NCBI GenBank assembly: GCA_018806915.1
Contig: JAGKQI010000060.1
Span: forward strand, 39,601-103,600
DNA length: 64,000 nucleotides
Source of the DNA: Phytophthora colocasiae
Lineage: Eukaryota; Oomycota; Peronosporomycetes; Peronosporales; Peronosporaceae
Direction: 5' to 3'
Each line of letters opens with the position of its first letter. Positions within the stretch are counted from its first letter, which is position 1. The notes under the pieces were generated by a model. That model saw nothing but the letters and a program-made list of their open reading frames with translations. It did no database searches and was not told the DNA's origin. A program made the position numbers and the translations under genes. Of the stretch, positions 4,122 to 46,793 are shown piece after piece.

Positions 4122-5267
4122 TCTGGCGAGTAGCGTAATGGTAGTGTAGAAAGAAAGAGATGTTTGTTGTACTGCAGTGAAAGGCGAAGTGGTAGATTTA
4201 GCAGTTAGAGTCTCACTGCTGGTGAGTGCGCGCGCCAAATCGATAGGACTTGAAAATGCCCTATAACTCAGTCAGTTTTATCATTTTAAGTTGGCGGTTT
4301 TGACGGTAGATCCATAACACGGTAAGAAAGGACCTACGGGCGTTTTGTTTTAGCGTTTTTGCAATTCCTAAAGTATGGCTCCCCACATAAAGCAAAAACT
4401 GTTTTTGCCAAACGACACAGTTTAGGACCCCATGCTTCAATACAAATCTCCCTATACTTCAAATAAAACCCGCTCAAAATGATATGACTGGGGGATTTGT
4501 ATGCCCAGGACATGTTCTAAACCTCTGTAGAGTGAAAGGTGGAGTGCATGTACTTCATGACTCTGGAATTACACAGAACATTGATAATAGATAAGTGCAT
4601 ATTTGGTACAGAAGGCCATAAATTCATTGGCAGAGAGTTACAAAGTGCAATTGCTGGCACTTTAACAGTCAGTCATTTAGTGGCTGTTTTTAGCAAATCA
4701 TAGTCAAAATGCGTTCAAATGTTAGAGACAAAAACAACAATAATGTCGATTCCTTGCATAAGAACTCTCTAAAGCATATATGATCTCTACCAAATATGCA
4801 CTTCTATTTCTCATTATCAATGTTCTGTGTAATTCAGAGTCATGATACATGTGCACTCACCTTCACTCTAACAGAGGTTTAGAACATGTCCCCATACAAA
4901 TCCCCAGATACATATCATTTTGAGCGGGTTTTATTTAGTATAGGGATTCCAGTGATTGAAGCAATGGGGGTCCTAAATTGTGTCGTTTGGCAAAAACAGT
5001 TTTTTGTATGGGAGCCATACTTTAGGGTGCAAAAACGCTAAAACAAACGCCCGTAGGTCCTTTCTTACCGTGTTATGGATCTTACTGTCAAAACACAGCA
5101 ACTTTAAAATGATAAAAACTGACTGAGTTATGGGCATTTTTCAGGGGGTCCTATCGATTTGGCGCGCAAAACTGTAGTAGAATCCATAGTTATCTACTTA
5201 CAGAGGGTGGATCGTAATACATATTACATAGTAATATGTATTGTATGACAAAGAGCATACTTCAACA
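4122..5267 (-). repeat. 3' LTR of the gag-only Copia element, split by a foldback insertion
   Basis: Bases 4122-4229 and 5168-5267 match the intact 5' LTR at 8941-9154. The middle of the LTR is replaced by the inverted-repeat element at 4230-5167. A further 20-base addition at 5216-5242 forms a hairpin with 11-bp arms (AATACATATTA / TAATATGTATT) and is absent from the other LTR. Part of the LTR between the breakpoints seems to be missing, so the event was not a clean insertion. Confidence 0.75.
4230..5167. mobile_element. Foldback-type element with ~380-bp inverted arms
   Basis: The left arm (4230-4609) and right arm (4789-5167) are inverted copies of each other with scattered differences. 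They begin GCGCGCCAAATCGATAGGA on the left and end with its complement on the right. The spacer of about 180 bp is AT-rich and shows no coding frame. No transposase or terminal duplication is seen. The unit could be a MITE-like foldback element moved in trans. As RNA the whole unit would form one long hairpin. Confidence 0.75.
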
Positions 5268-17990: not shown

Positions 17991-18009
17991 AGTCGTTACT
18001 ACACGCTTT

Positions 18010-18056
18010 GCCGGGCCAAAGTGGGCTAATCGAGCATCCAATGTGGGGCAGGATTA
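18010..18056. repeat. Orphan transposon terminus abutting the mariner-like element
   Basis: The sequence GGCCAAAGTGGGCTAATC...GCAGGATTAA matches, in inverted orientation, bases 32105-32149. It ends exactly where the mariner-like element at 18057 begins. It seems to be the end of a second, related element. Confidence 0.55.
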
Positions 18057-19581
18057 ATTTTAGGCGGCTGACAGAAAACCCAAAACAGCCCCAAAACTGT
18101 TTTTTCACACAATCAAAGTGGGCTAACTCAATCACTGTCAAAAGCGAGCAAACTACTGGCCATAGGGACATATCTTTCCTTACGAATTAAGCTGCATGCA
18201 ACAAACTTCGAAGCGTGCAGCTCTACGTTGCCCTGCAATCCATGCGCTGAGTGATCTCGCAGGCATGCAAGAGTGTTGGTAGCTTCCGCTCGAGGAAGCC
18301 CATGCGAGCTTCTGTCTTCGAAATTGGTGGACCAGTAATACTCTCCGGTCAGTGGGTCGTTCATCTCTTCCCTCGCTGTAGCTAGGTAGGTTTTGATGTG
18401 CGCTTTAAGCAGCGCTAAAGCGAAGTTTTCAATCTGGCAGTTACACATGGGGCTGTATGGACCAAGTCGAAGTGCAAGACATGAGATCGCAGCGGGGCTG
18501 TTACGAGCTCCTCTGGTACGAGGAAGTGTGCTGGTGCATTGTCAAACACGATGACGATCTTTCTTGTCCCTATACCGCTCGTGTGATAGATGTTGCTCTC
18601 CTTGATGACCTCATACAGCTCCTCTACGAAGTCGGCGTTGGTTTGCATTTTTTAATGCTGCCTCTTTGCGTCCGGTACGCAACGACACCGTACGCAGAGG
18701 AGACCGGGCGCACTGGATTTGGAGGTTGGCGCCTCTTGACGGCGGTGCATCTTCTCCACGGGCACGCTTTCCCTTCTTTGCACGACCTTTTCGTGCGCTT
18801 GGTGTAACAAGCTAAAATTCGTCTCGTCAAAATACGACGACGAGATCATCACCACGTGCTTGGTGTCTGATCAGCGCTTCCAGCAAACACCTTCCCTCTT
18901 CTCCTTATTTTCACCTCATCTGTGTGTACATGTCGTAGGCTCGAGCGCGCGTCTATTAATCGAATTAGCCAAAGAATATTGAATGTTAATTCAGTCTCAG
19001 CACATGTACATGTTCATAGTAAAGCACACCTGTTTGATTTGGTAAAGAGCATGCCTTTCAGGATGGCGAGAAATGGTAGACTCTGCGATGTCCACACACG
19101 AAATTCATCAAGGACCATGCGTTTCAATGTGGCAAGTGGGAGAAGAACAACACTTCGATCCAGCCACAGCCTCTTAATGTCATGCGCCTTGATCTCGGGG
19201 TCACTTTGGTAGCAGGCGGCCCCCTCGATAGTGGTGAAGCTTTCAACAGCACTGGTCGAGGCTAACAAGTCGCTCCGCTGTGCTCTGTGCAGGAACTCCA
19301 TTATAATGGGCAACAGCACGCCAGTTAAGCCACCGGCGTGGTATGCTTTGAGTGACGCGACGGCGTTCTTCAGGTGTGTGTGGGTCTTGAGGTGGCGGGG
19401 TTTGGGAAGGCATCTGGGTTGTGTAATGTCAGTTGCAGATTGACTTTGTGGTCTCCATTTCGGGCGCATGCGAAGTACTGTACATGTACATGTACGAATG
19501 ATTTGAATGATGATTAGCCCACTTTGATTGTGTGAAAAAACAGTTTTGGGCTGTTTTGGGTTTCTGTCAGCCGCCTAAAAT
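18057..19581 (-). mobile_element. Tc1/mariner-like transposon with ~70-bp TIRs
   Basis: The inverted ends start ATTTTAGGCGGCTGACAGAA (18057) and close with its complement at 19581. They match over about 70 bp, through CTGTTTTTTCACACAATCAA and AGTGGGCTAA. TA flanks both ends (18055-18056 and 19582-19583). The 1.5-kb body encodes a broken transposase on the minus strand. Confidence 0.75.
18128..19469 (-). pseudogene. Tc1/mariner-like DDE transposase, frameshifted
   Basis: The minus-strand pieces run in order. The segment 19469-19014 is the N-terminal DNA-binding part. The segment 18855-18652 has SSYFDETNFSL, the 'iDEtnFn' block with the first catalytic acid region. The segment 18648-18415 has IVFDNAPAH, the second catalytic Asp. 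The segment 18448-18128 has MCNCQIENFALALLKAHIK, corresponding to 'SPMCNPIE.FsvlKa.iK' with the third acid. The frames change at least three times. The transposase would have catalysed cut-and-paste at TA sites and is now inactive. Confidence 0.7.
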
Positions 19582-19583
19582 TA

Positions 19584-22500
19584 ACCCTATCGTCACCCAG
19601 AGCCATTTCTATATTAAGCAATCCATACTTTATTCAAGTGAAAATAGTTAAACCGTACTTGAAGTAAGGTTTGATATATTAAGTTTCATCAGGTTATTAT
19701 CGTACTTAGCGATTATTTAATTGGTTTTCAGGTTGAAACCTACTTCATGTATGCTTTTGAATGCTGCGTTATGATTCGACAAAAAATAACGAGGCTAGAG
19801 CCACGCTCAACCGCAACATTGGCGCTATAACGACAACATTCTAACACTCAATAGCAGTACCGTGGAAGACGTGGAGGAACCTGGCGACGCCTTCAGATGG
19901 ACACTCGTGGTAGGCAATTGGTCAGGAGACGTTGTTCTCCTTCTGGAAATATGAGCTCTACATGATGCCGCGAGATCTACCGCCGCAAGAAAGCATCCGC
20001 GCGTAGTCCATGCCCATCGACATTGCAGCGCCCCTAAACCGCAGTCCTCCACCATCCGCAACTTGCACCACTTTGTCAATCCTGCCCACCACAATCAAGG
20101 TCTTCTAGCGTATGGATTCATGCACAATTGGATAATAGACTCGATCGTGTAGCTTCCCGAAGTTACACTGTTGCTGAGTTCTCTGCGCCACTTCTCCAAG
20201 CTCAAGAGCTATAATCTCCACCTCAGTTCGTACGCGACTCCAGAGTCTCTGGTGTATGCACTTAATGATAAATTGCTGTTGTGGTGCTGCAGGGCAAGAA
20301 GGAGCGTGATATGTCACACCTAGGATCAAGGAGCTGCATCGTGTGCTGGAGAGTTCCCTGATGGCCTGCGGTAATGATAAAGGTGTGTTCTCTGTAACCT
20401 TGAGGGGCTGCTTTTACGTTTCTTGTAGATACTCACACTTAATCGTTTGATCTTGCCCCACAGAATGTTGGGGCAGTGTCGTGACCTGCTGCCTTATTGT
20501 CAGTAGCGCCAAATGCTTGATCGATACATTGCTGCGTCTAAACGGTTGGAAACCCAGCGGCTATTGGATTAGGTGTGGTATTAGGCGGTGGAGGTGTCGA
20601 AGACGAGCTTTACGGAAGCAGTCCGAGGTGGAGCTTAAGAATTTGCCGAACTATTGGGACCTCCGATCTATTCGATGAGGGAAAGTGCGATCACTGTGTT
20701 GTAGGATGATGAACGTCCGATGAACAGTCAATGGTGTTTATCGAGCTCTTTAGTAAGCTCTCTACAACTCTGATTACACCTTGCTCTCCCTACTACTGTG
20801 CATCTGCCACAAATGCGGTTGTAAAGCGATGCTGGAATGTTTCCAGTGGACCAGTTCATCCAAAAGATTGGAGCTAGAGGGATATATCCTTTTGAATATT
20901 GCAACTACTTTATCGCAACCTACTCGTTTGTTGGTTTCTCACCCTGGCTGGTCAATCCGGCTTTACGGTAAGATGGACATACAAAAATACGATATTTGGT
21001 CCACAAAACGGTGCACTACGCAACGTAATGACACATACAAAAAATACCATATTTGGTCCCACAACCGTATCTAATTATGTAATAGTCAGTGGGTTCACTT
21101 CTGAAGTCGCAGAGCCCGGAGCACGACGGCGATCAGGATCGAAGGAGTTCCAGGATACAGCAAACTGACGGAAAAAGAGTCATCAAGCGCCCGCGTAGAA
21201 CGCTTGATCATCAAGACAACAGTGCAGTAGCCTTGCCCAGCGGTAACGTATTCATTCCTGAATCTGACCGCCGTAATAGCTGAACCAATGTGATCACATA
21301 TATAGCAACATCTCACCACGTCTGTGAGTTTCAAGGAAGCCTGGAAAACGTTACGGCGTGCTGGTTGGACATCTAAAACCACCCTCTAGGGCGCAGTTTG
21401 GATATACACTATCGCTACGTGTCCATCCAGGAGGCAATCCAAATGGGAAACAAGGAGAAGACTTATTTGTTAAGGTAGAAAACGCTGTTGTGGAGCATTT
21501 TAACGATTTGCCTAGTGGAGATGACGGATTGGATATTGTGAGAACAGCCTCTTGAGGCCCGAGTTGTACAGACGTTCAAGGAACATTGATGCACATGGAA
21601 GTTTAGGCCTTTGCTTGCGTCACTCCCTCCGGCTACAGTTACCGAAGAGAGCGTAGTGCTCCGATGTCTTTCTCAAACAACGCGTGGTGGAAAGATGAGC
21701 GTACGGTTTTGTCCTCCCAAAAAAGCTGTCAGTCATCGAGGACATTGTTATTCAAAGTGACAGAGGGATGTCGAGGATGGGTGAAAATCCACTCCAGCAT
21801 CAGTTCCCGACGCAACATGCTGATCCACAACAGAAATACTGAGAGCGCCATTCTCAGCCCTCTATGCGCGGTGGTGCGCATCCGCCTGTTCAAACCAATG
21901 ATCATGTACGGCTTGTGGATCATTTTTACATCACTTTTGTTCCCATGACATTTGCAAGACTCTCCGATTGCTGGACTCCAGATGGACAGCCAATGCTGGA
22001 TTTTGGAGATGTAACTTCCTATTGCAGCAAGAAATGCCCTACGAAATGAAGTCAGCGAAAGCAGTGAATATTCGCCTCGCATTGCTGCTTTTAAGTATAC
22101 CTTCTGCTTCAACGCTTCGAGTATCGAAACGATCCCCAAGGACGCTCGGGCATCCAAGCCCGCCACACGCTCACTGCATGAAAGCCGAAACAGCTAGCAG
22201 TTCCCAAACCACCAGGAAAACACTCTCAGAACGTGACAATGGCAGCAAACAAAATTCAACGCTTCAACATACAACATCTCGCTCCAGCGGAACTTCAAAA
22301 CCACGGGCAAGATCATTTGAAGGCCAAAACTGCTTGAAGGAAATGCCCCCAAAAGAAAAGAAGCACAACTGCAGTAAACATATCCGAAAGGAATTGTTGT
22401 ATCGGACACAAGAAGTAGCAGCGCAAAGTTTGTTGGCGCAAACGTGGCTTTCACACCTGCGGAGGAGAGGCTGGATGAATCCTCAGCATTATCAGGAGAT

Positions 22501-22679
22501 GTTGGCGCAAGTTTTCTGATTGGGATTGTTGCTAAGTACTCGGTGCTCAACAAGTCAAATGTAGGGGTGTCGCCCTACCAACGGCTTTGTTTCAGATCCG
22601 ATGGACAAAGCACCGTTTGTTTTTCAAGGCAAAGTTCATGTTCACAACATCGAAAGAAAGTGATGTTTATCGTGGGATA
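19584..22679. other. Long stretch without a recognised gene
   Basis: I recognise no protein in this 3.1-kb stretch. Two direct copies of a roughly 30-base word ending ATATTTGGTCC(C)ACAA lie at about 20970-21005 and 21030-21065. The word recurs at the inner ends of the large inverted arms. The plus frames at 21968-22519 may include the unrecognisable N-terminus of the PiggyBac relic that follows. Confidence 0.35.
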
Positions 22680-24870
22680 AAAACTATGTGGATATCAAGA
22701 AGAAGAATTTCGGAGTTTGGTGAATCTTGGAGTGCGCTTTGCACTCATGGTCCCGACGTATACAAATATTCCAACGTTGACAAGATGCATTCGATGAGGG
22801 TGGAGGGGAAGAATTTGACTACCGCGAATGGTCTGTGTTTCCGAAACAGAACGAGCTGCATATCGATCTGTGGTCACTGCAGAGGTAGAGAGCGATTTCA
22901 GGGGATGGCATTTTCGCATGAACGGCTACACTTAGGCGAAGTAGGAGGCACCCGGGAATTCTATTTTCACACGCCGATGGATCTACAACGACCAAGCGCT
23001 CTGCGACGCGAGCAAAACACCTTTTTCGGTCAAACCGCAAGCTCAAGCTTTTGCTTTTACCTTTATCACTGTGGAAGGCAAGTTGTCATTTTTTCAAATG
23101 ACTATGCTTCAAAAGCGCCAACCCACCAGCGGCGCGCTATAACACTCGAAGAGGTGATGAAATTCACTTGGTATTCAGTGGTATGACGCGGCTTGTAGAC
23201 AAGGGAGAGATCCGAAATTACTTGGTTTTGCATAGCGAAGATGACAATATATTTCCTGGAAGTTCGGAAATCCGACAGGAGTCTGGGAACGAGTGATGAC
23301 ATGGAAGAGATACCTGCATATTCGCAGCAATTTGGCGATTTCGTGGAGATAGTAACAGCAGCCGAATTAAAAACAGAGACCCCGCCGCCAAAATCCGCTC
23401 CCCTCTAATCGCAATGCTGAAGAATCGGAATTGTAGTCGCCACGTTATTCCAGGCAGAAACCAATGTTGCGCTGTTGATGAAGCGAAGTAGCGTTGCGTG
23501 CGAATCGAAATACGCGGAGGCACATGATCGTCTTTAACCGCAAGCAAACCGACCGGGAAGTACCACTTCAGAAAAGCTATACGCTTGCTGTTGTTCTACG
23601 TCGTGGATAGTTCTGGAACTTCTTAAACTCCACTGCGCTAGCGAACTACGCGCCTCGTCCGCTAAGCAACGTTGTTTCCGATGGCGAGATCGATGACTTC
23701 TAGCAGCACTGGGACGGCTAGAGTCTTCGAGACATTAGGACTCACGTTCTTGAAGTCACCAACTCGCTGAAAAGGATCAAGAAGGGTGGTAAATACCGAT
23801 AACTTTATACCTCAAATTGTTTACTTCTCGAGGAGTCTACGAACGATTGGTCTTTACGGCCGAGGCACCGTGCGCGCTTCAAGTAAACACTTCCCAAAGT
23901 TTACTATGATTCTAAGCCAGAGGATGAAAAAGGGGGAAACCACATGAAGCAAGAGTGTGTTTGGAGGAAGCATACTAGTCGCGGCAAGCTGGGTCCGATG
24001 ATGATCTATCGTTAATGTTATTTCAAATGCTGATGACTCTGGAACGACGACAGTGTACCGCCGCATTCGGTAGAGCAAGATCGAGAAGGGCCTTTACAGC
24101 TCAACATGCATCAAAGAGTACAACTCGGCGATGCAGGGGTGTGTGGATCGTCATGACCAAATGCGAGGCCGGTTTCCGTTGCAAACGGTCACACACGTTT
24201 AAAAAGTGGCACAAAAAGCTCGCAAATGGCGATGATAAGATATTGCGCGGTGCAACGCGCCCTACATATGTCATCGGGAAGCCATGGCGTTGGGGAGAAT
24301 CAATCCTGTGGACGATGAAGAAGCTGATGACAACCCTATACCTGGCTGTCGTGACGAACACCAGGTGCGCTTTGTGGCGTAACCTGGTTCGGCGAGATGT
24401 TTAACGGGACCTGGAAAGACGATCCTTAGCGAATGACATGGATGGACTGTTGTTTGCGAATAACCACGACGGAACATCCTCTATTCTAACCGAGACACCC
24501 GCAATGGCTATTCGCAAACTCTGGTTGAAAGAACCTTTGCATTGCCAGAGAGTCCTGGATAGTACTAAAAGATCGCAGCCGAGCCATGCGGGAATGTACC
24601 ATTTGTCGGTTTGAATGCAGGACACCAACCCAAAAAACCGATTATTGCGAAAAGCACAAAGTTGCGTTGTGCAAACGGACATATCCTGTAGACACAACAA
24701 AACCATATCTGTGTCAAGTAGCGTCGTGGTCGTGCTGGCAGAAATTCCATGGATATTACTTCCCGAAACAAGTCTTTAATATTGATGGGCGATTGATGCG
24801 CAGCTCATCGATTTATAAAGCCCAAGCACCGTTCCTCAAAGAAGCGAAGTCTACAAAGAAAACGACGTAA
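22680..24870 (+). pseudogene. PiggyBac-like transposase, decayed
   Basis: Pieces of one PiggyBac-type transposase appear in order in shifting plus-strand frames. About 23800-23935 has NTDNFIPQIVYFSRSLRTIG followed by LYGRGTVRASSKHFP, the 'DNFyTS..L...L...g....GTvR' block with a catalytic Asp. About 24110-24180 has EYNSAMQGCVDRHDQMR, the 'YN..MgGVDr.D' block with another catalytic Asp. About 24586-24790 has the C-terminal cysteine-rich region (MRECTICRFECR, DYCEKHKVALC). Many frameshifts and stops lie between. The 5' limit is uncertain, because no family block is visible before about 22700. TTAA-flanked ends were not found. Confidence 0.65.
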
Positions 24871-25349
24871 AGATCTTCCAGTAATTACTACCGAATGAAT
24901 CACCTGTTCTTTGATACTGCTGCCATGGATTGCTTTACGGGGATCATCTTAGCCCAGAAAGGATCAAATATATTGAAAATTGTATGAAGGATAACTGTAT
25001 AAAATGAAATGAGTATTTCATGAATAGTTGTTTTCAAAAGCTTGATTCTCATGAAATCAGTATTTTCAGGAGGATATACAAGCGCAAACAAAGCAATCGT
25101 CTGAATATTGTTTATTATTTGTACTTGTACTACATGAACGGCAGAGGAATAGAACTCGTGATGTCCCACCGTAGTATGTAGACGACTCAACGCAAGAGGC
25201 AAGCATTGTAACAAGATATGACTTGGCCAACCTTGACGTCACCTTCAACAGACCCATTAGGCCTCTTTATATCCGGCAAAGGTGTTGAGTGATATCGGTC
25301 TGATGGTGATGTGGCCCAATAGCCAGAACAGTAGGCAGAATTGAATTTC
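24871..25349. other. Intergenic, no feature seen
   Basis: This AT-rich spacer lies between the PiggyBac relic and the left inverted arm. Short frames on the minus strand show no family resemblance. Confidence 0.4.
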
Positions 25350-26314
25350 TCTGCTAACGAGCTGTGTGTACCGAACGCCATGTTTGACACGCTGGTGCAG
25401 TTCCCCAGGATCAAACAACTAAGCGCACCCATCCATCTCGCTGAGTATCATCAAGCAAGCAGTGGAGAGATGGCTTCGCCCCAAATCGCGACCTTGCTGT
25501 GAATTTTCGCGTGTTCACCAGAGCTCGGATCCTCGAGCCAGCCAATAGTAAACGCCGCCACCAATAAATACTGAACTTCTTGAACGGACATTCCACTGAT
25601 AATGTGGACGTCATGAATCGCTGGACGGTGCCAATGAAGCGTGCGCTCGCCAATATTCATCGAATCATCGAAGGAGCATGGTGGCAGTGCGACCACGGTG
25701 GTGGCGCCATGGGAGAGCAACGATGAAGCTCATCCAACTTCGCTACTGGGTAATCAGCACGATGACGGATAGTGGTGTGGCGAGTAGCGTCTCCGACAGC
25801 GAGCAGTATCATAGATCAGCACACGGGGCAGAGCAATACTGTGTAGTGTGGCGAGTAGCGTCTCCGACAGCGAGTAGTATCATGGATTTCGGAGAGAAGC
25901 TAGGCAAGTAACGATGTAGCCACTCTCGTGTGAGGATTGTCTGGGTCCGGGAAAAATGGGAAATGAGCTGCGTTTGGATTTTGGCGCGTGCTGGGACAGT
26001 GCAGTGTGTTTGAAGTTTTCAGCCAATCAAATGCCAAAATACCGGAACACAACCTGATTGGCTGCCAGACGCAAAGCGAAGACATTGGCGAAAAGTTTGG
26101 ATGTTGAAGTTTGCGTTTGCGCGCTAAAATCTTTCTACGTTGAAGTCCAAGTTTTCTCCGATGTCTTCGCTTTTGTTTGACAGCCAATAAAAATGCGTCC
26201 CGAGATCCTGACACTCTGATTGTGTCTTCGAGTGACCCTTAGTGTCGACAGTGCTTCTAAGGTTAACCCTTCCAACGATCTTGGGACCAAATATCTTTTC
26301 TTTGTGTATGCCAG
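25350..26314 (+). repeat. Left arm of the large inverted repeat
   Basis: The arm is the inverted copy of 29362-30328. Both carry the same 80- and 89-residue open frames without amino-acid change, so the arms are recent or kept alike by gene conversion. Inside is a direct repeat of about 41 bp (GTGTGGCGAGTAGCGTCTCC...) at about 25774 and 25846. Three CCAAT/ATTGG-type words occur in the inner 300 bp, suggesting a promoter. The arm ends about 30 bp before the DOT1-like start codon. Confidence 0.85.
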
Positions 26315-26345
26315 TTTCACTTTTCAGTCGAAGACGCGGTGTACG

Positions 26346-27402
26346 ATGGCCGATTTCTCTGATAAAGAAGACCTGCAACTGTATCGACTAGCGAAGACTC
26401 AAGTGGACGCAGGAAAAAAATATGCTGGCGAAAAGTGTGGTTAGAATGCCATTTTGTGGTAAAAGCCAACACCAACTCCAAATCAGGCTAAAGACACTAA
26501 AGAAAACGTACGGCATCGACTTAAATGGTTTTCCGAGGCGCTTCACAGGTGTCCAAGACAGAGGAAAGAAAGCTCCAGGAACCCGAAAAGCCAATGCTGA
26601 TGCGCCCATGGACATTCACCTTGTCATTTCGACGCTTTTTGCGACTGTCCCGCGGCAAACGATTCCTTTTCCAGATCACCACACTGGCGAAGTGACTCCA
26701 CCCGGTGTTTCCGACATCCTTGACGTTCTCCCGGACCTTCAAGCGAAGGATGTTTTTCTTGATGTTGGCTCAGGAGTTGGAAACATCGTGGCTCAAGTGG
26801 CACTCCAAACGCGGGTCGGGATGTGCATCGGTATTGAACTTCAGCAACAATTGGCTCATATGTCTGGGTCGTTGTTTTCTAGTAGCGCTTTACAGCATCC
26901 AAGACTGAAGATCGTTACTGTCTATCACGGCGACATAAGATATATGGACAAGACAGTCAACACTGTGGCAAAGCGTGCTACCGTTGTGTACGCGAATAAT
27001 CTTGTTTTCGAACCTACCAGCAATGTGGCACTAGAAGAACTGTTCACATCATCAAGACGATTGGAGCATGTTATTGTCACTGAGAGAGTCTGTGCTCGCC
27101 ATCGAACTGGGTGTAAACGAAACTTTTGCTCCACCTGGAAGCTTTGTCAACCTATTGGCATTTCCGTGTCTTGGTCTTCAAAACGGCGTTATGCGTACTG
27201 GTACACGAAAGCGTACACCCCAGTGACGCTAATACTAATAACAACGTTCGCTTCTTCTTTTTTTTTTGAGCACTCGTATTTTGAATCTGGGCAGGTACCG
27301 CAAGCTAATCGATCGCTTTGTGCGAAGACACTGTTTCAGCCTTCTGCACGAGTACAAGACGCGCGCGCATCGAATGCAACCGGCTGGATTCAGGAGCAGT
27401 AG
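26346..27402 (+). pseudogene. DOT1-like histone H3K79 methyltransferase with SANT-like N-terminus (two close frameshifts)
   Basis: The gene begins MADFSDKEDLQLYRLAKTQV at 26346. A run of seven A's near 26411 shifts the frame, and a second shift about 30 bases later restores another. Together they interrupt a SANT/Myb-like segment (WRKVWLE..., GKSQHQLQIRLKTLKKTYG). From 26422 one frame of 326 residues carries the DOT1 methyltransferase core. It has DVFLDVGSGVGN at residues 110-121 (the SAM-binding motif I of DOT1), IGIEL about 20 residues later, and VYANNLVFEP, the asparagine motif typical of DOT1. A Cys-rich tail (CARHRTGCKRNFCSTW) follows. DOT1 enzymes methylate H3 Lys79 on nucleosomes and influence silencing. 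Whether this copy works depends on the two indels, because the catalytic core itself is open. It lies directly inside the left inverted arm. Confidence 0.8.
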
Positions 27403-27450
27403 AAACGTAAACTACACGTGCGCGTCGTCAATATCGTGCGCTGTCGGGAG

Positions 27451-27987
27451 ATGCCGATGGAAGTGCGTTTGAGGCTGCAGAGCGACGTCCCTACTTCTGC
27501 TACTCTGTCGCGTGAAGAGCTGGAGATGGATATATCGGAGCGTCGGGAAGTGAATCGGAATGATGTTCAGGTCCATAATGACATTCAGATTCACAATGAG
27601 GACGTGGGGGAGGAACAACAGGAAGTGGAGACGCCACCGGAGCGTCGTCCAGTGTTAGGCAAACGACCGAGAGCTTCGACCCCTCCTACTGGTCTTCAGG
27701 AGCCTTTAGAGCGTGTGTTGACGTCCATTCGAGATGTCATGACGCAGACGTTGGAACTCAAACAGCAGGAGTTACAGTTGAGACGAGAGGAGCTACAGTT
27801 CCAGAAGGAGGCACTGGCTACGAAGATGGAGGACAGACGCCAAGCCAGGGAGGAGGAAAGGAGAGACAGGAAGGAGCAACGAGAAGCTGATCGGAAGGAG
27901 AGGCTAGAGCTTGCCAAGATCGAGAACGAAAAGAATCTGGCTTTCCTCAAGGCGGTGATGGAGTCATCGGCGCAACAACGGCGCTGA
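27451..27987 (+). CDS. Coiled-coil, charged protein downstream of the DOT1-like gene
   Basis: This intact frame of 178 residues starts at MPMEVRLRLQSD. ATG-like starts exist further 5', up to 27418. Residues ~1-80 are acidic and polar and include a basic cluster (GKRPRAS) that may be a nuclear localisation signal. Residues ~90-175 are a long Glu/Arg/Lys/Gln helix with heptad character (ELKQQELQLRREELQFQKEA). It starts about 50 bp after the DOT1-like stop, on the same strand. Similar helix-rich proteins occur as accessory ORFs of DNA transposons and as DNA-binding co-factors. The function is unknown. It may be a partner of the methyltransferase or a second protein of the element. Confidence 0.6.
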   Translation: MPMEVRLRLQSDVPTSATLSREELEMDISERREVNRNDVQVHNDIQIHNEDVGEEQQEVETPPERRPVLGKRPRASTPPTGLQEPLERVLTSIRDVMTQTLELKQQELQLRREELQFQKEALATKMEDRRQAREEERRDRKEQREADRKERLELAKIENEKNLAFLKAVMESSAQQRR

Positions 27988-28069
27988 ACAAAAGGAACAA
28001 GGGGAAGGAGAAGCATGTTGCTAGTTCTGGTTATATATATCGTAGTTTTACAAAAGCAATGGGGGTAGG

Positions 28070-28944
28070 CTAAAGAGCTCCTAGCGCTCGTACTTCTCTC
28101 CACAGATGCTGGAAGTGTTCATCAAACGGCCTAAAAAACAGTTTTGCCAAGAAAAATGTTTGAGCTCTTGGGAAGTCAAGATTGACGCCAACGTACGGCC
28201 GTCCTTGTGGATAACAAGGTTTTCCAGCGTTGCCTACGACAGCCTGGCGGCTCCAGTTGAAAGAACCTGCAGTACAACATCCTGTAAGAACAAGAAGATG
28301 GGTATCTCTAGTGTGTGAAAACCAACATACCATTCAGCAAAACCTTCTTGTCGATGATGCAGAAACTGTCAGTGGACAAATACAATATTGCATCAGTCAA
28401 ACAGCACCCTATACTTTTCATGCTGTCTCAACGTTACCTTGTGGTGCATGTAGGTGTAAGAGTGGTCGTCTCGAACGGGGATTCCCTGTTCACCAGCACA
28501 TGTCAGTAGCTGTGGTCATAAGTCTTAGATCTAGCAACGTACAGCGTCGATGAACTTCTGAATGTCGGAGCCTTTGCCTTTCGCCTGACCGTCGTCCGTG
28601 ATGACGCGGATCTTGACGCCGCGTTCATGGGCTTCCAGCACGACGTCTGCAATCTGAAGACCAAGGGTTTATATTGCATCAAAGACTCAGACCATTGCAC
28701 CTCGTACCTCATCACAGGTGATCGTAAAGACGCAAATGTCCATCGTCTTCTTGGCTGCCTTGAGACACCCGAGCATGGTCAATAATGAGCTGTTCTGGTC
28801 GTGGATCTTCTTGCAGTTTTTGCGCGTGCAACCCTCGCTCGAGTGGAAGTTCTTGCACGGCATGGCCGTGTCTGGGAAGAACAACACGTCCACGAACGAG
28901 TCGCCCGTGATAGCCGTCGTATCCGTTCCTAGACAATTGCCCAT
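28070..28944 (-). CDS. PLD6/Zucchini-like phospholipase-D-fold protein with CCCH finger, five predicted exons
   Basis: Exons read on the minus strand at 28944-28708, 28653-28543, 28485-28438, 28365-28331 and 28266-28070, all with GT-AG introns (54-64 bp, exon 5 acceptor CTGCAG). Exon 1 has a CCCH-like finger (CKNFHSSEGCTRKNCKKIH) and then LLTMLGCLKAAKKTMDICVF. Exon 2 has AHERGVKIRVITDD. Exon 3 ends YMHHK, the His and Lys of a single HKD motif. Exons 4 and 5 join to give VLLNGSFNWSRQAVVGN. A finger plus one HKD is the layout of PLD6/Zucchini, which acts as cardiolipin hydrolase or piRNA-processing RNase in animals. It would act as a dimer. One surplus base at the exon 3/4 junction breaks phase, and part of exon 5 reads better in another frame, so this may be a damaged copy or contain assembly errors. 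Confidence 0.7.
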
Positions 28945-29361
28945 GTTGATACTACAGGACTGGAACTAGCTCTGCTGTAAACCTGGCAAATGAGAAAGTG
29001 AACCTGCTGGCCTGTGGGTAATGCTCGAAAGCACTACGTCGCAGTAAATGCGATCGTAGCTTGGATCCGGAGCCTCGAGGGTTCCACCTTAGAAATATCC
29101 ACGTCGAACGGAAGAAGAAGAATGAGTTGATTAACTAGTTTCCGCGTCGAACGGAAGAGTTCGCTAGGCCGTTTGAACGCTACTTACACAAATATATCGA
29201 GTGAGCCCATGGTCATTGTGCAAAAAGCACCAAATAATACGAGATGACTCATTACAGTCTGTGATGATCATCACGATAAGGTAGTACCATAATACGTTTA
29301 GAAATATGTCACACTAATTGAAAAGTGTGTGTTTTTTTAGTCGTGATGAATTCCCAAAACG

Positions 29362-30328
29362 CTGGCATACACAAAGAAAGATATTTGGTCCCAAGATCGT
29401 TGGAAGGGTTAACCTTAGAAGCACTGTCGACACTAAGGGTCACTCGAAGACACCCAATCAGAGTGTCAGGATCTCGGACGCATTTTTATTGGCTGTCAAA
29501 CAAAAGCGAAGACATCGGAGAAAAACTTGGACTTCAACGTAGAAAGATTTTAGCGCGCAAACGCAAACTTCAACATCCAAACTTTTCGCCAATGTCTTCG
29601 CTTTGCGTCTGGCAGCCAATCAGGTTGTGTTCCGGTATTTTGGCATTTTGATTGGCTGAAAACTTCAAACACACTGCACTGTCCCAGCACGCGCCAAAAA
29701 TCCAAACGCAGCTCATTTCCCATTTTTCCCGGACCCAGACAATCCTCACACGAGAGTGGCTACATCGTTACTTGCCTAGCTTCTCTCGAAATCCATGATA
29801 CTACTCGCTGTCGGAGACGCTACTCGCCACACTACACAGTATTGCTCTGCCCCGTGTGCTGATCTATGATACTGCTCGGCTGTCGGAGACGCTACTCGCC
29901 ACACCACTATCCGTCATCGTGCTGATTACCCAGTAGCGAAGTTGGATGAGCTTCATCGTTGCTCTCCCATGGCGCCACCACCGTGGTCGCACTGCCACCA
30001 TGCTCCTTCGATGATTCGATGAATATTGGCGAGCGCACGCTTCATTGGCACCGTCCAGCGATTCATGACGTCCACATTATCAGTGGAATGTCCGTTCAAG
30101 AAGTTCAGTATTTATTGGTGGCGGCGTTTACTATTGGCTGGCTCGAGGATCCGAGCTCTGGTGAACACGCGAAAATTCACAGCAAGGTCGCGATTTGGGG
30201 CGAAGCCATCTCTCCACTGCTTGCTTGATGATACTCAGCGAGATGGATGGGTGCGCTTAGTTGTTTGATCCTGGGAACTGCACCAGCGTGTCAAACATGG
30301 CGTTCGGTACACACAGATCGTTAGCAGG
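29362..30328 (-). repeat. Right arm of the large inverted repeat
   Basis: This is the mirror copy of 25350-26314. It points inward towards the PLD-like gene, whose start codon lies about 420 bp from the arm. The inner end reads CTGGCATACACAAAGAAAGA followed by TATTTGGTCCCAAG. Small differences from the left arm exist (for example around 29450-29460). Confidence 0.85.
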
Positions 30329-32104
30329 GAAGTCCAACATCCGCCTCCCTTTCTGTTCGCATGTGGAATTAGTATGAGTTGTTTCCGAAGCATGGTAAAT
30401 TCGGAGCTTCCCAGCGAACATGGCGCTGTACTGGAAGGGGGTTGCACTTGATGGATTGTCCTTTGTAGCTATCCCTGTACCGATAGACGGAGCTCCGCTA
30501 TTTAAATCTTTGAATTAATAACACGCCAATATACGATCAGACATTTGATGTAGTATCCAGGATTTCGCCGTTGTAGTCTTGCTGAGACTATAATTGCCTC
30601 ACATGATTTCGCTAATTGCTGCACTTGCTGTCTGGCATGACTTTAGCCAATCATTACTATTGAGAAAGGTGTCAGATGCAATCCGTAGTCTGAATGATAT
30701 GTGGTGATACACAATAGCAGGTTGGAAGGCAATCGTATGATCATACAATTCGCGAGATATTTGGTCCTGTAGCTAAAGGATATCTTTGGCATACTATTTG
30801 CAAGATATTTGATCCAACCGATTTGCAGAATTGAGCGAGTCCACGTCAAGGCACACTTCTCATTCTTGTCTGGAACAACGAGATGGTGGATAACCGACAC
30901 GACGCCGAAATAATAGAGGTAGAACTCCACATTGTTTGATTGAGATCGGCATTAATGCACTCATTTGTATTGTTGCAGCTTTGGAGCCACATCAAGACAC
31001 ATGCCAGCAAGGGCGCCGCCTGTATTCTGACAATTGTACCAAGAAGTACGTTCAAAGCTGCCTTATTATTTGCGGTTATAAATGACTTCGATTGTGTTCG
31101 TATTCGTGGGCCATCTTTAGTGCTGGTACGAAGGTCGCATTTGATGAAATTTATACGATCTCCTTGACTTCACATGATCGGGTACAAGTACATATATAAA
31201 ACGACTACACATTACGCTTCCTAAACTAACTTCGTGATTTTGATTAGTAGTTCGACCCTGAATTCGGCTCATCGCCAGACGTGAATGACTTTATTGCGGC
31301 GTTGCTGCGGTAGAAGGCAAGATGACCTTGCCAGGGCCTCGATACGATCGATATAACGTATGGACGAGCACGAAATTCGCTTTCCCGCTAGAGCTGGCTG
31401 GATTTTGAAGGGCTCCTGAACTGGAAGATATAGGTCTTAGGGGTGTTTTCAGCATAACAGTCTATAACTGTGAGCATACTCACTTCCTGGAATCGCAATG
31501 CTCTCTCGTCCGATCCAATTTGCTGTTTCACACTCCGGTTCAAATCTATAAGCACGAGGACGATTCAATTCTGCCGTTCCCACTCTCTAATTCATGTCCA
31601 TGCGCAAGCGACCCCACCAACCCACAATCTCCAGACTGCTTCTGTGCCACAGTCTCCAAGACCTCATTTATGGGCTCAGCTCACGATCCAAAGCATCTTG
31701 TTGCTGTCGAAGAAGTAATAGTGAATAAGGGTCGTTCTCCTTGTCCTCCAGCTTTTCGATGTACACCATGTTTACTCACCACCAGCGTTGTGAGGGACTT
31801 GAGTACGCAGGATTGTCATTGGAGCCTTCAAGTCACTCAATAACAATATGACATGGATTGAGACCGTGTAGCGTAGAAGACACAATAGCACTACAGCTAT
31901 ATTTGTGAATCCTTTCGGTCATGATTGGTAGATAATGATACTTGTGAACCGTCGCCAGCTAATTATTACGTTAGCAAAACACGGAGCATATTTTCATTTG
32001 TATAGTGAATTTAGTATACGATTTCACAAAAGAAGTGACAAAGTTTTTTTTCACATCCTTATTTGCTAAACCGTACATAATGTATTTTTTTGTAAACAAT
32101 CGGG
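30329..32104. other. No gene recognised (30.3-32.1 kb)
   Basis: I see no recognisable protein here. The word AGATATTTGGTCC recurs at about 30755. Plus frames near 31470-31843 have no family resemblance. The stretch is AT-rich towards 32.0 kb. Confidence 0.35.
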
Positions 32105-32401
32105 TTAATCCTGCCCACATTGGATGCTGATTAGCCCACTTTGGCCGGCAAAAGGTGTAGTTCTTGTAGAAGCGTCTTGTCCGACTCCGGAATCAATAAA
32201 GCTGGCAGGAACTTGGACATTGCCACGGGTTTCGGCATGGTTTCGATCGCACAAGGCAAGTCTAGCAATGAATTCCTCGGTCCAGATACCAAAGACTATC
32301 CAAAATTTCCACGGAGAGGACAAGCGTGGCAGATCCAGCGACGCCCTGAACAGATCTGCTGAAGACAAGTCATCTCGGTGAGTTCTAGCCACACATCCCA
32401 A
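32105..32401 (-). mobile_element. Terminal fragment of a pogo/mariner-type element
   Basis: Bases 32105-32149 (TTAATCCTGCCCACATTGGA...) are the inverted counterpart of 18010-18056. The adjoining minus-strand frame of 98 residues has a shape weakly like the N-terminal helix-turn-helix of Tigger-type transposases (IWTEEFIARLALC). The other end of the element was not found. The link to a transposase is tentative. Confidence 0.35.
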
Positions 32402-41061: not shown

Positions 41062-41326
41062 TGTTGTCGCCGTGGCAACACTGTGAGGTTGTAGATGGGA
41101 TCAAGCCCAGCAACAACATCACTGCAGAAGAATCGAGAAACAAGTACAGACGGTTAGACCGCAGACGGTTGCTGCAAACACAGACGGTTGTAGCAAAGCA
41201 CGGAAGTGCACTAACCGTCCATAAAGCCTCCAGGACATGCATATCAAAGAAGAGCAGCTAGTGCAGGAGGTAAGGAACTGCTCAATACATTATCACTTCT
41301 ACATTTTCCATTTGGGAGCCATAACA
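41062..41326 (+). repeat. 5' LTR of the Gypsy element
   Basis: TGTTGTCGCC...GCCATAACA, 265 bp. On its minus strand it supplies an ATG (41242) and a 60-codon open frame that continues in frame into the lectin gene. Confidence 0.9.
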
Positions 41327-46528: not shown

Positions 46529-46793
46529 TGTTGTCGCCGTGGCAACACTGTGAGGTTGTAGATGGGATCAAGCCCAGCAACAACATCACTGCAGAAGAAT
46601 CGAGAAACAAGTACAGACGGTTAGACCGCAGACGGTTGCTGCAAACACAGACGGTTGTAGCAAAGCACGGAAGTGCACTAACCGTCCATAAAGCCTCCAG
46701 GACATGCATATCAAAGAAGAGCAGCTAGTGCAGGAGGTAAGGAACTGCTCAATACATTATCACTTCTACATTTTCCATTTGGGAGCCATAACA
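46529..46793 (+). repeat. 3' LTR of the Gypsy element
   Basis: A 265-bp copy of 41062-41326, followed by the duplication GTGAA at 46794-46798. Confidence 0.9.

Follow-up and report, generated by a model that had tools for sequence, protein, structure and literature searches.

Organization of the locus

The window analysed here, i.e., the whole stretch of 64,000 nucleotides of Phytophthora colocasiae DNA, contains two inverted arms between which a DOT1-like gene, a coiled-coil ORF, and a PLD6/Zucchini-like gene are found, as the initial annotation had described for positions 25350-30328 (Table 1). The arms are slightly longer than described there and are 98.0% identical over 998 columns, with long blocks of 100% identity. 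The identical frames that they were said to encode could also be recovered, since an 89-codon frame is the same in both arms (25451-25720, minus strand; 29959-30228, plus strand); this frame reaches no Pfam cut-off and need not be a gene. The PLD6-like gene is present on the minus strand and has introns, but its frame is broken in the window copy.

The same annotation held that no transposase was visible. A decayed piggyBac transposase is in fact located at ~21.9-24.9 kb, where tblastn places the transposase frame of the sister copy C36 at 22679-24867 and the transposase of the C3 family from 21875 onward. In C36 the transposase frame is open and matches PF13843 (E 4.2e-49), so that the DDE_Tnp_1_7 transposase of piggyBac elements is found there, the window copy being a decayed homologue only. 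Among the matches listed, PF13843 lies within at least five copies. The transposase occupies the left half of the element, and the Myb/SANT-like + DOT1 gene lies to its right.

Table 1. Features of the element and its surroundings (positions in the window)
Feature	Position	Strand	Basis or remark
Whole piggyBac element	19585..32104	+	12,520 bp; homology beyond the arms to ends common to the copies
Left TTAA target-site duplication	19581..19584		Window and 8/10 other left junctions
Right TTAA target-site duplication	32105..32108		Window and 10/10 other right junctions
Empty-site equivalent (uninterrupted terminus of the repeat hit by the element)	17998..18126		Flank matches
Decayed piggyBac transposase	21875..24867	+	Matches scattered over three frames
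Left arm of inverted repeat	25324..26314	+	Inner end 32 nt from the DOT1 ATG; may be a duplicated upstream/promoter region
Myb/SANT-like + DOT1 gene	26346..27402	+	Pfam, fold model, PDB search
Coiled-coil ORF	27418..27987	+	3' part of a donor-like 233-codon frame, N-terminus missing
Captured host segment	27438..29032		Donor-like locus C34:808586-810198; 96% with gaps
PLD6/Zucchini-like gene	28075..28944	-	Six exons modelled on the C34 locus; lower limit approximate
Spacer, captured segment to right arm	29033..29361		Among the loci compared, confined to family-1 copies
Right arm of inverted repeat	29362..30355	-	Arm alignment

Ends and target site of the element

Because homology passes the arms and reaches TTAA ends common to the copies, the limits of the element were set at 19585 and 32104. 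Its left terminus reads CCCTATCGTC... and its right terminus ...ACAATCGGG, with the form CCC...GGG. The terminal inverted repeats beginning with CCC that are expected of piggyBac are thus present, being short and imperfect (CCCTATCGTC versus CCCGATTGTT). The TTAA target-site duplication, also expected of this superfamily, is found in the window and at the junctions of other copies; at the remaining two of the ten other left junctions, the left end differs. The empty-site equivalent holds a single TTAA (18054-18057) and matches the flanks of the element at 96.1% (19588-19514) and 91.7% (32161-32105). Copies occur at ten other loci with differing flanks, giving eleven loci with the window, and arm pairs are present at nine of the ten. 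The ends of independently inserted family-1 copies coincide. As read from these junctions, the family-1 element has inserted at TTAA with duplication of the target.

With regard to mobility, the proposal that the genes belong to a mobile unit carrying DOT1-type and PLD6-type functions was therefore correct in substance, although the unit is the 12.5 kb element and not the arm-bounded segment. A one-off local inverted duplication is rejected by the copies at ten other loci. The suggested link to long-TIR or MULE machinery did not hold, since the transposase is of the piggyBac type and the inverted repeat is not a terminal repeat: between the arms and the element ends there are a further 5.7 kb (left) and 1.7 kb (right). 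A MULE or fold-back element with the arms as its limits was likewise rejected, as the shared ends lie outside them.

A DOT1 gene associated with a piggyBac clade

In the window, the DOT1 gene carries two frameshifts, one following the N-terminus and one close to the C-terminus, leaving an open DOT1 frame at 26422-27402. This frame matches PF08123 (E 2e-21; 76.9 bits versus a cut-off of 23), and the assignment is also backed by a search of solved structures and by a fold search, in which all 50 Foldseek matches listed are DOT1 enzymes (TM-score 0.44-0.52 when normalized by query length, with the tails left unmodelled). Family 1 has GSGVGN and NNLVF, which we take to be the SAM-binding GxGxG and the NN-x-[LF] motif of DOT1, respectively; both are conserved, with variation, in 17 proteins. 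The dN/dS of DOT1 is 0.11-0.31, and purifying selection is therefore indicated.

Regarding its association with the transposase, a DOT1-like gene is found within 12 kb at 55 of the 69 transposase-clade loci among those listed, while random placement (1000 trials) gives a mean of 2.96 loci with DOT1 nearby and a maximum of 9. These 69 loci are not independent, since seven of them are family-1 copies. Fourteen have no listed DOT1. The transposase and DOT1 trees agree to a large extent (17 pairs, Mantel r 0.73), with one clear conflict (C80/C11). In the compact relatives C83 and C100, matching TTAACCCTTTCGCG ends, whose terminal repeat is a 10-nt match, enclose the transposase together with DOT1. 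This pairing is also hinted at by record names from two further Phytophthora species; no DOT1-piggyBac fusion protein occurs among the 116 and 30 relatives listed. DOT1 is not random cargo, given its frequency against the random maximum and the agreement of the trees. Statistically, these sequence comparisons identify it as a regular second gene of the piggyBac clade that has largely co-diversified with the transposase. Overall, with a probability of roughly 0.85, a 12.5 kb oomycete DNA transposon of the piggyBac superfamily is present, the feature under study is its cargo half, and DOT1 is a gene of its clade; this figure does not extend to any anti-silencing role.

Captured host DNA and the inverted arms

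The captured segment is 1.6 kb long and differs from its likely donor at C34 by ~2% substitutions. The start of the coiled-coil ORF, which had been noted before, falls in element sequence. The host gene at C34 encodes a PLD-type nuclease domain (PLDc_2) with one HKD motif, is closest to PLD6 (phmmer E 1.1e-31 against mouse chain 4ggj), and its protein starts with MGNCLG and has no evident membrane anchor. In the element, 7 of 10 copies have a broken PLD frame. Of 30 PLDc_2 rows listed, 8 are in family-1 copies and 1 is at the C34 locus, and the view that the clade maintains PLD6 was accordingly rejected. By sequence, a segment of family 1 nearly identical to a host locus adjoins DOT1 and has been amplified with the element; in this segment, the PLD6-like gene travels as a passenger recently acquired from the host. 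The idea that DOT1 and Zucchini form a joint silencing device was abandoned, as the two genes differ in standing: DOT1 has long belonged to the clade, and PLD is a recent, mostly broken capture.

For the C36 copy, the alignment breaks off precisely at position 27437, the boundary of the capture, beyond which ~210 bp matched only at C36 are followed by a high-copy repeat; this copy may be pre-capture or merely rearranged. The inner segment of family 2 forms a longer palindrome, for which C55 and C34 give matches of 75-79%. The captured gene of the C3 family contains stops and its single frames have no Pfam match; one frame, with X at the stops, gives a Rhodanese match.

Divergence is 1.35% between the arms of one copy, 0.78% between copies for arms of the same side, and 1.54% for different sides, and strong concerted evolution of the arms was rejected on these values. 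One copy has a flipped interior, which arm-arm recombination would explain. The arms may be upstream regions duplicated when the gap repair that followed excision was interrupted and switched templates, a process that would also explain the capture of host segments.

Alternative explanations

The reading initially proposed, in which the transposon is the long-inverted-repeat unit 25350-30328, altering silencing through DOT1 and Zucchini, draws on the inverted arms around the genes and their recurrence as pairs at other loci. Homology nevertheless runs beyond the arms to the TTAA ends, none of the 11 loci showed a copy that stops at the arm ends and has a target duplication there, and PLD is neither intact in most copies nor a clade gene; the probability of this reading is practically negligible. 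The presence of DOT1 beside piggyBac could instead result from repeated independent pick-up or from a shared insertion preference, DOT1 then being a host family or that of another transposon. Once family-1 copies are set aside, 42 of 107 listed DOT1 loci have no listed piggyBac nearby, and at one locus sampled from these 42 (L081), no match to the transposase is found up to 4.5 kb away and the neighbouring frames are unrelated. Set against the excess over random placement, the agreement of the trees, and the location of DOT1 inside TTAA ends in C83, C100, and the window family, such an origin is very unlikely.

As for the arms, they could be pure by-products of repair, i.e., duplications in inverted or direct orientation that do not act as promoters, the captured genes being silent filler. 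The C3-family arms, whose sequence differs from that of families 1 and 2, the broken captured PLD, and the stops in the captured gene of the C3 copy all speak for this. On the other side, the duplicated block of three families comes to a halt at distances of 28, 32, and 137 nt upstream of the DOT1 ATG, and families 1 and 2 share a conserved portion of the arm (66-83%). The by-product explanation is given slightly less than an even chance.

Putative function and relation to known systems

The best reading is that this piggyBac lineage encodes a predicted chromatin writer of its own, probably for managing its silencing. That the predicted DOT1 protein, guided by the Myb/SANT-like domain, would methylate H3K79 or a related site around insertions and keep the element genes transcribable, i.e., act as anti-silencing, is a tentative proposal with just under half of the probability. 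In Ectocarpus, a stramenopile, H3K79me2 is associated with intact TEs, and TE expression is lower where coverage is high (PMC12477816); the mark thus accompanies repression, which counts against simple anti-silencing. These data would fit a self-limiting DOT1 whose predicted H3K79 methylation represses the element, lowers the cost to the host, and controls copy number, as would the proposal in PMC13076208 that the expanded DOT1s of brown algae form a repressive pathway. However, Ectocarpus and the brown algae are distant relatives, and transposon-encoded TET/JBP enzymes are read as aiding escape from silencing (PMC12730594); self-limitation is considered unlikely.

The element shares its TTAA target, CCC...GGG ends, and DDE_Tnp_1_7 transposase with the piggyBac superfamily, including annotated Phytophthora relatives, and differs by its regular Myb/SANT-like + DOT1 gene, duplicated arms, and captured host DNA. 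To our knowledge, the transposase is the sole gene encoded by typical piggyBac elements, and no published description of a DOT1-carrying piggyBac lineage was found in a literature search. With mitochondrial cardiolipin hydrolase PLD6/Zucchini, the passenger shares the PLDc_2 domain and single HKD motif, but here it is a host gene copied into an element. Histone methyltransferases are already known from Phytophthora DNA transposons, namely SET enzymes on HarbingerS and MuDR (Kojima and Jurka, 2014, as cited in PMC12730594); compared through that citing paper, the present case involves another fold (DOT1, not SET) and another superfamily. Fungal DNA transposons carry TET/JBP dioxygenases proposed to counter silencing, and thus also have an epigenetic enzyme as a transposon gene, but these are DNA-modifying oxygenases, unlike the predicted DOT1-type protein methyltransferase, and the carriers that the abstract of PMC12730594 names do not include piggyBac. 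Numerous DOT1-type genes are likewise found in brown algae, with no tie to transposons in the part of PMC13076208 considered here, whereas most DOT1 loci examined in the present genome lie near piggyBac transposases.

Transposons with a chromatin enzyme of their own provide natural experiments on the arms race between silencing and mobile DNA. Co-diversification of a DOT1-type enzyme with a piggyBac transposase would add both an enzyme class and a superfamily to the known cases. Family 1 displays host-gene capture, likely donor, junctions, and later decay within one genome. Many DOT1 genes of the genome would be explained by the DOT1-piggyBac pairing, which also provides a concrete way to test the role of H3K79 methylation in oomycetes. 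In its widest form, the proposal would be that most DOT1-type genes of Phytophthora are transposon genes, that a piggyBac lineage long ago took up a Myb/SANT-like + DOT1 writer which sets H3K79 methylation at insertions, and that the duplicated arms are expression cassettes repeatedly capturing host genes (PLD6-like, rhodanese-like). Taken jointly, these statements are distinctly unlikely all to hold; if they did, part of the H3K79 landscape of Phytophthora would be written by selfish DNA.

Limits, ends and transposase of the element

The inverted-repeat arms reported in the initial annotation are real (98.0% identity over 998 columns). The DOT1 frame placed between them scores 76.9 bits in Pfam (cut-off 23, E 2e-21), and a coiled-coil ORF and a PLD-like gene are present there as well. 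Searching the genome for the arm revealed facing pairs at nine further loci and a lone arm at a tenth, on contig C36. One of the ten two-armed copies of this family (family 1), L017 at C50:876 kb, is a flip isomer, in which the stretch between the arms runs in the opposite orientation with respect to the element ends.

The arms, taken as the limits of the unit in the initial annotation, are not its limits, since homology runs beyond them on either side. With flanks searched in the whole genome, the left limit (window 19580) is common to eight of the ten other copies and the right limit (32108-32111) to all ten. Shared outer ends with TTAA, and flanks unlike between copies, were seen at the copy junctions, 20 of which were retrieved: the right end is ACAATCGGG-TTAA in the window and in 10/10 other copies, the left end TTAA-CCCTATCGTC in the window and in 8/10. 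The remaining two (C50:241 kb and C35) have another sequence, common to both, outside position 129 at the left end. These loci (L037 and L038) share this altered left end with its foreign sequence and have unlike right flanks, so the variant itself appears to have transposed.

The window element interrupts one terminus of another repeat. The opposite terminus is uninterrupted, contains a single TTAA and matches the two element flanks at 96.1% over 77 columns and 91.7% over 60; judged by this similarity, it is the empty-site equivalent of the insertion.

The element is a piggyBac transposon. PF13843 matches lie inside the copies on C36, C29 and C62 and both copies on C50, the C36 copy having an open transposase frame of 687 codons (E 4.2e-49). 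The unit had been described as lacking a visible transposase; the window holds a decayed homologue of the C36 frame, matched from 21875 on when a longer relative is used as query.

Features of the window
Feature	Coordinates	Remarks
piggyBac element	19585-32104	12,520 bp
Decayed transposase	22679-24867	over three frames
Left arm	25324-26314	
Right arm	29362-30355	
Captured segment	27438-29032	matches C34:808586-810198
Target repeat	17998-19588, resuming at 32105	inverted termini; many genomic places; distinct from the piggyBac element
Uninterrupted terminus	17998-18126	TTAA at 18054-18057
Direct repeat	41062-41326, 46529-46793	265 bp, 100% identical, 5.2 kb apart
Imperfect palindrome	4230-5167	large; matches own reverse complement, 79% over 991 columns

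The direct repeats, which have matches of 265 bp and longer elsewhere in the genome, are probably the LTRs of a recently inserted retrotransposon.

Captured DNA and duplicated arms

The captured host segment matches its donor-like locus on C34 at 96% with gaps, with 1.6-2.5% substitutions across copies. At this locus, where further long frames (313 and 409 codons) are present, the coiled-coil frame spans 233 codons, including a cysteine/histidine stretch missing in the element, and the PLD gene is modeled with six exons, its 185-residue product matching mouse PLD6 (E 1.1e-31). The ten copies of the segment differ from one another by 0.87% on average, which fits a single capture event with later amplification. 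Three of them (C19, C50:876 kb and C35) keep a PLD frame without frameshifts or stops; in the other seven, the window among them, it is broken. The C36 copy diverges exactly at the capture boundary, as expected of a pre-capture copy; it was not relied on as such because its right end lies 32 kb off in inverted orientation.

A duplicated block of 1-1.6 kb upstream of DOT1 is found in three families. It is an inverted pair in family 1 and in the C3 family (1592 bp, 99.7%, possibly longer since the retrieved sequence starts within the block), and two direct copies and one inverted in family 2. The block ends 32, 28, and 137 nt ahead of the DOT1 ATG in family 1, the C3 family, and family 2, respectively. 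The inner part of the block shows conservation between families 1 and 2 (66-83% over 81-243 bp), which the C3 family does not detectably share. Family 2 (L022-L026, L056) is a larger piggyBac-DOT1 family, with further palindromic arms of 584-589 bp in an inner segment that is almost complete at 14 loci. The C3 arms enclose a gene fragment reading, with X at stops, as a rhodanese domain (E 5.3e-9); four full copies contain it, and it also occurs, at 90%, at C10:1234382, a locus without a DOT1 match. It can be hypothesized that interrupted gap repair would have produced the arms and captures, and that the arms would carry promoters.

Association of DOT1 with a piggyBac clade

DOT1 belongs to the piggyBac clade. 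Scoring 123 of 215 DOT1 candidates gave 107 merged loci, and two transposase searches (58 scored of 789 candidates, 52 of 1085) yielded 69 clade loci after merging, seven of which are family-1 copies. Among the loci listed, a DOT1 match lies within 6 kb of 53/69 clade loci and within 12 kb of 55/69. Random placement of the 107 DOT1 loci, with contig sizes approximated as the largest coordinate seen, linked 2.96 clade loci on average and 9 at most in 1000 trials; DOT1 is near 6/63 of the non-clade piggyBac loci listed. In the 55 linked loci DOT1 is downstream on the opposite strand (30), downstream on the same strand (17) or upstream (8). Seen from DOT1, 61/107 loci have a listed piggyBac no more than 12 kb away, four more are family-1 copies and 42 are unlinked. 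L081 1779-2765 (C57:2610978-2611964) carries the DOT1 of a multi-copy family with a MADFSDEED N-terminus, shared by similar 329-codon loci on C32, C36, C52 and C105; no transposase match occurs in the 4.5 kb retrieved around this copy.

Compact relatives on C83 and C100 are 99.3% identical over 4.7 kb, with unlike flanks and TTAACCCTTTCGCG at either end; their long sense frames are the transposase (958 / 856 codons) and DOT1 (320 / 416 codons), all stop to stop. Transposase and DOT1 tree distances correlate over 17 pairs (Mantel r 0.73, p 0.0001); in one case (C80/C11) the trees clearly disagree. Rough dN/dS values, given several dS > 1 and overlapping pairs, are 0.11-0.31 for DOT1 in 7/10 comparisons (three saturated) and 0.06-0.39 for the transposase in six (four saturated). 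In P. fragariae, DOT1 PF005_g20579 and a piggyBac relative without precomputed domain, PF005_g20578, are consecutively named, and in P. palmivora the contig size is the same (10,703) for both genes, which is only suggestive of pairing in other species. Among the matches listed, no single protein has both DOT1 and transposase domains.

The C36 DOT1 frame, 319 codons from stop to stop, has sequence matches among H3K79 methyltransferases of solved structure (best E 1.4e-5). A structure model of the window frame, which is shifted after the N-terminus, was built on a 17-sequence alignment (mean pLDDT 73.2; block means 84-95 for residues 91-260); all 50 Foldseek matches listed are DOT1 enzymes, with 808 matches at E <= 0.001. 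The DOT1 N-terminus resembles a Myb/SANT domain, below the Pfam cut-off at loci L053 and L054 and missing from the Pfam result for L056; P0020, a P. fragariaefolia relative, has both Myb/SANT and DOT1 domains in its precomputed annotation.

Possible role of DOT1

Tentatively, the DOT1 of the element would counteract silencing (probability about 0.45), by analogy with transposon-borne TET/JBP as described in PMC12730594. Less likely, the element would use DOT1 to repress itself, a reading favored by H3K79me2 on repressed TEs in Ectocarpus (PMC12477816) and by the suggestion that DOT1s of brown algae act in repression (PMC13076208). In open-access PMC literature, with wider searches by listed titles, no paper was found on DOT1 with piggyBac or with transposons in oomycetes or Phytophthora. 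SET genes are stated to occur in Phytophthora transposons of the HarbingerS and MuDR families (PMC12730594, citing Repbase Reports 2014), and these Reports may include piggyBac entries with DOT1.

Among the matches listed, 26/116 relatives of the clade transposase (e.g., P0053, P0054, and P0058), all from sources without species name, have a chromodomain (PF00385) beside DDE_Tnp_1_7. Such proteins represent a further link to chromatin in this transposase group.
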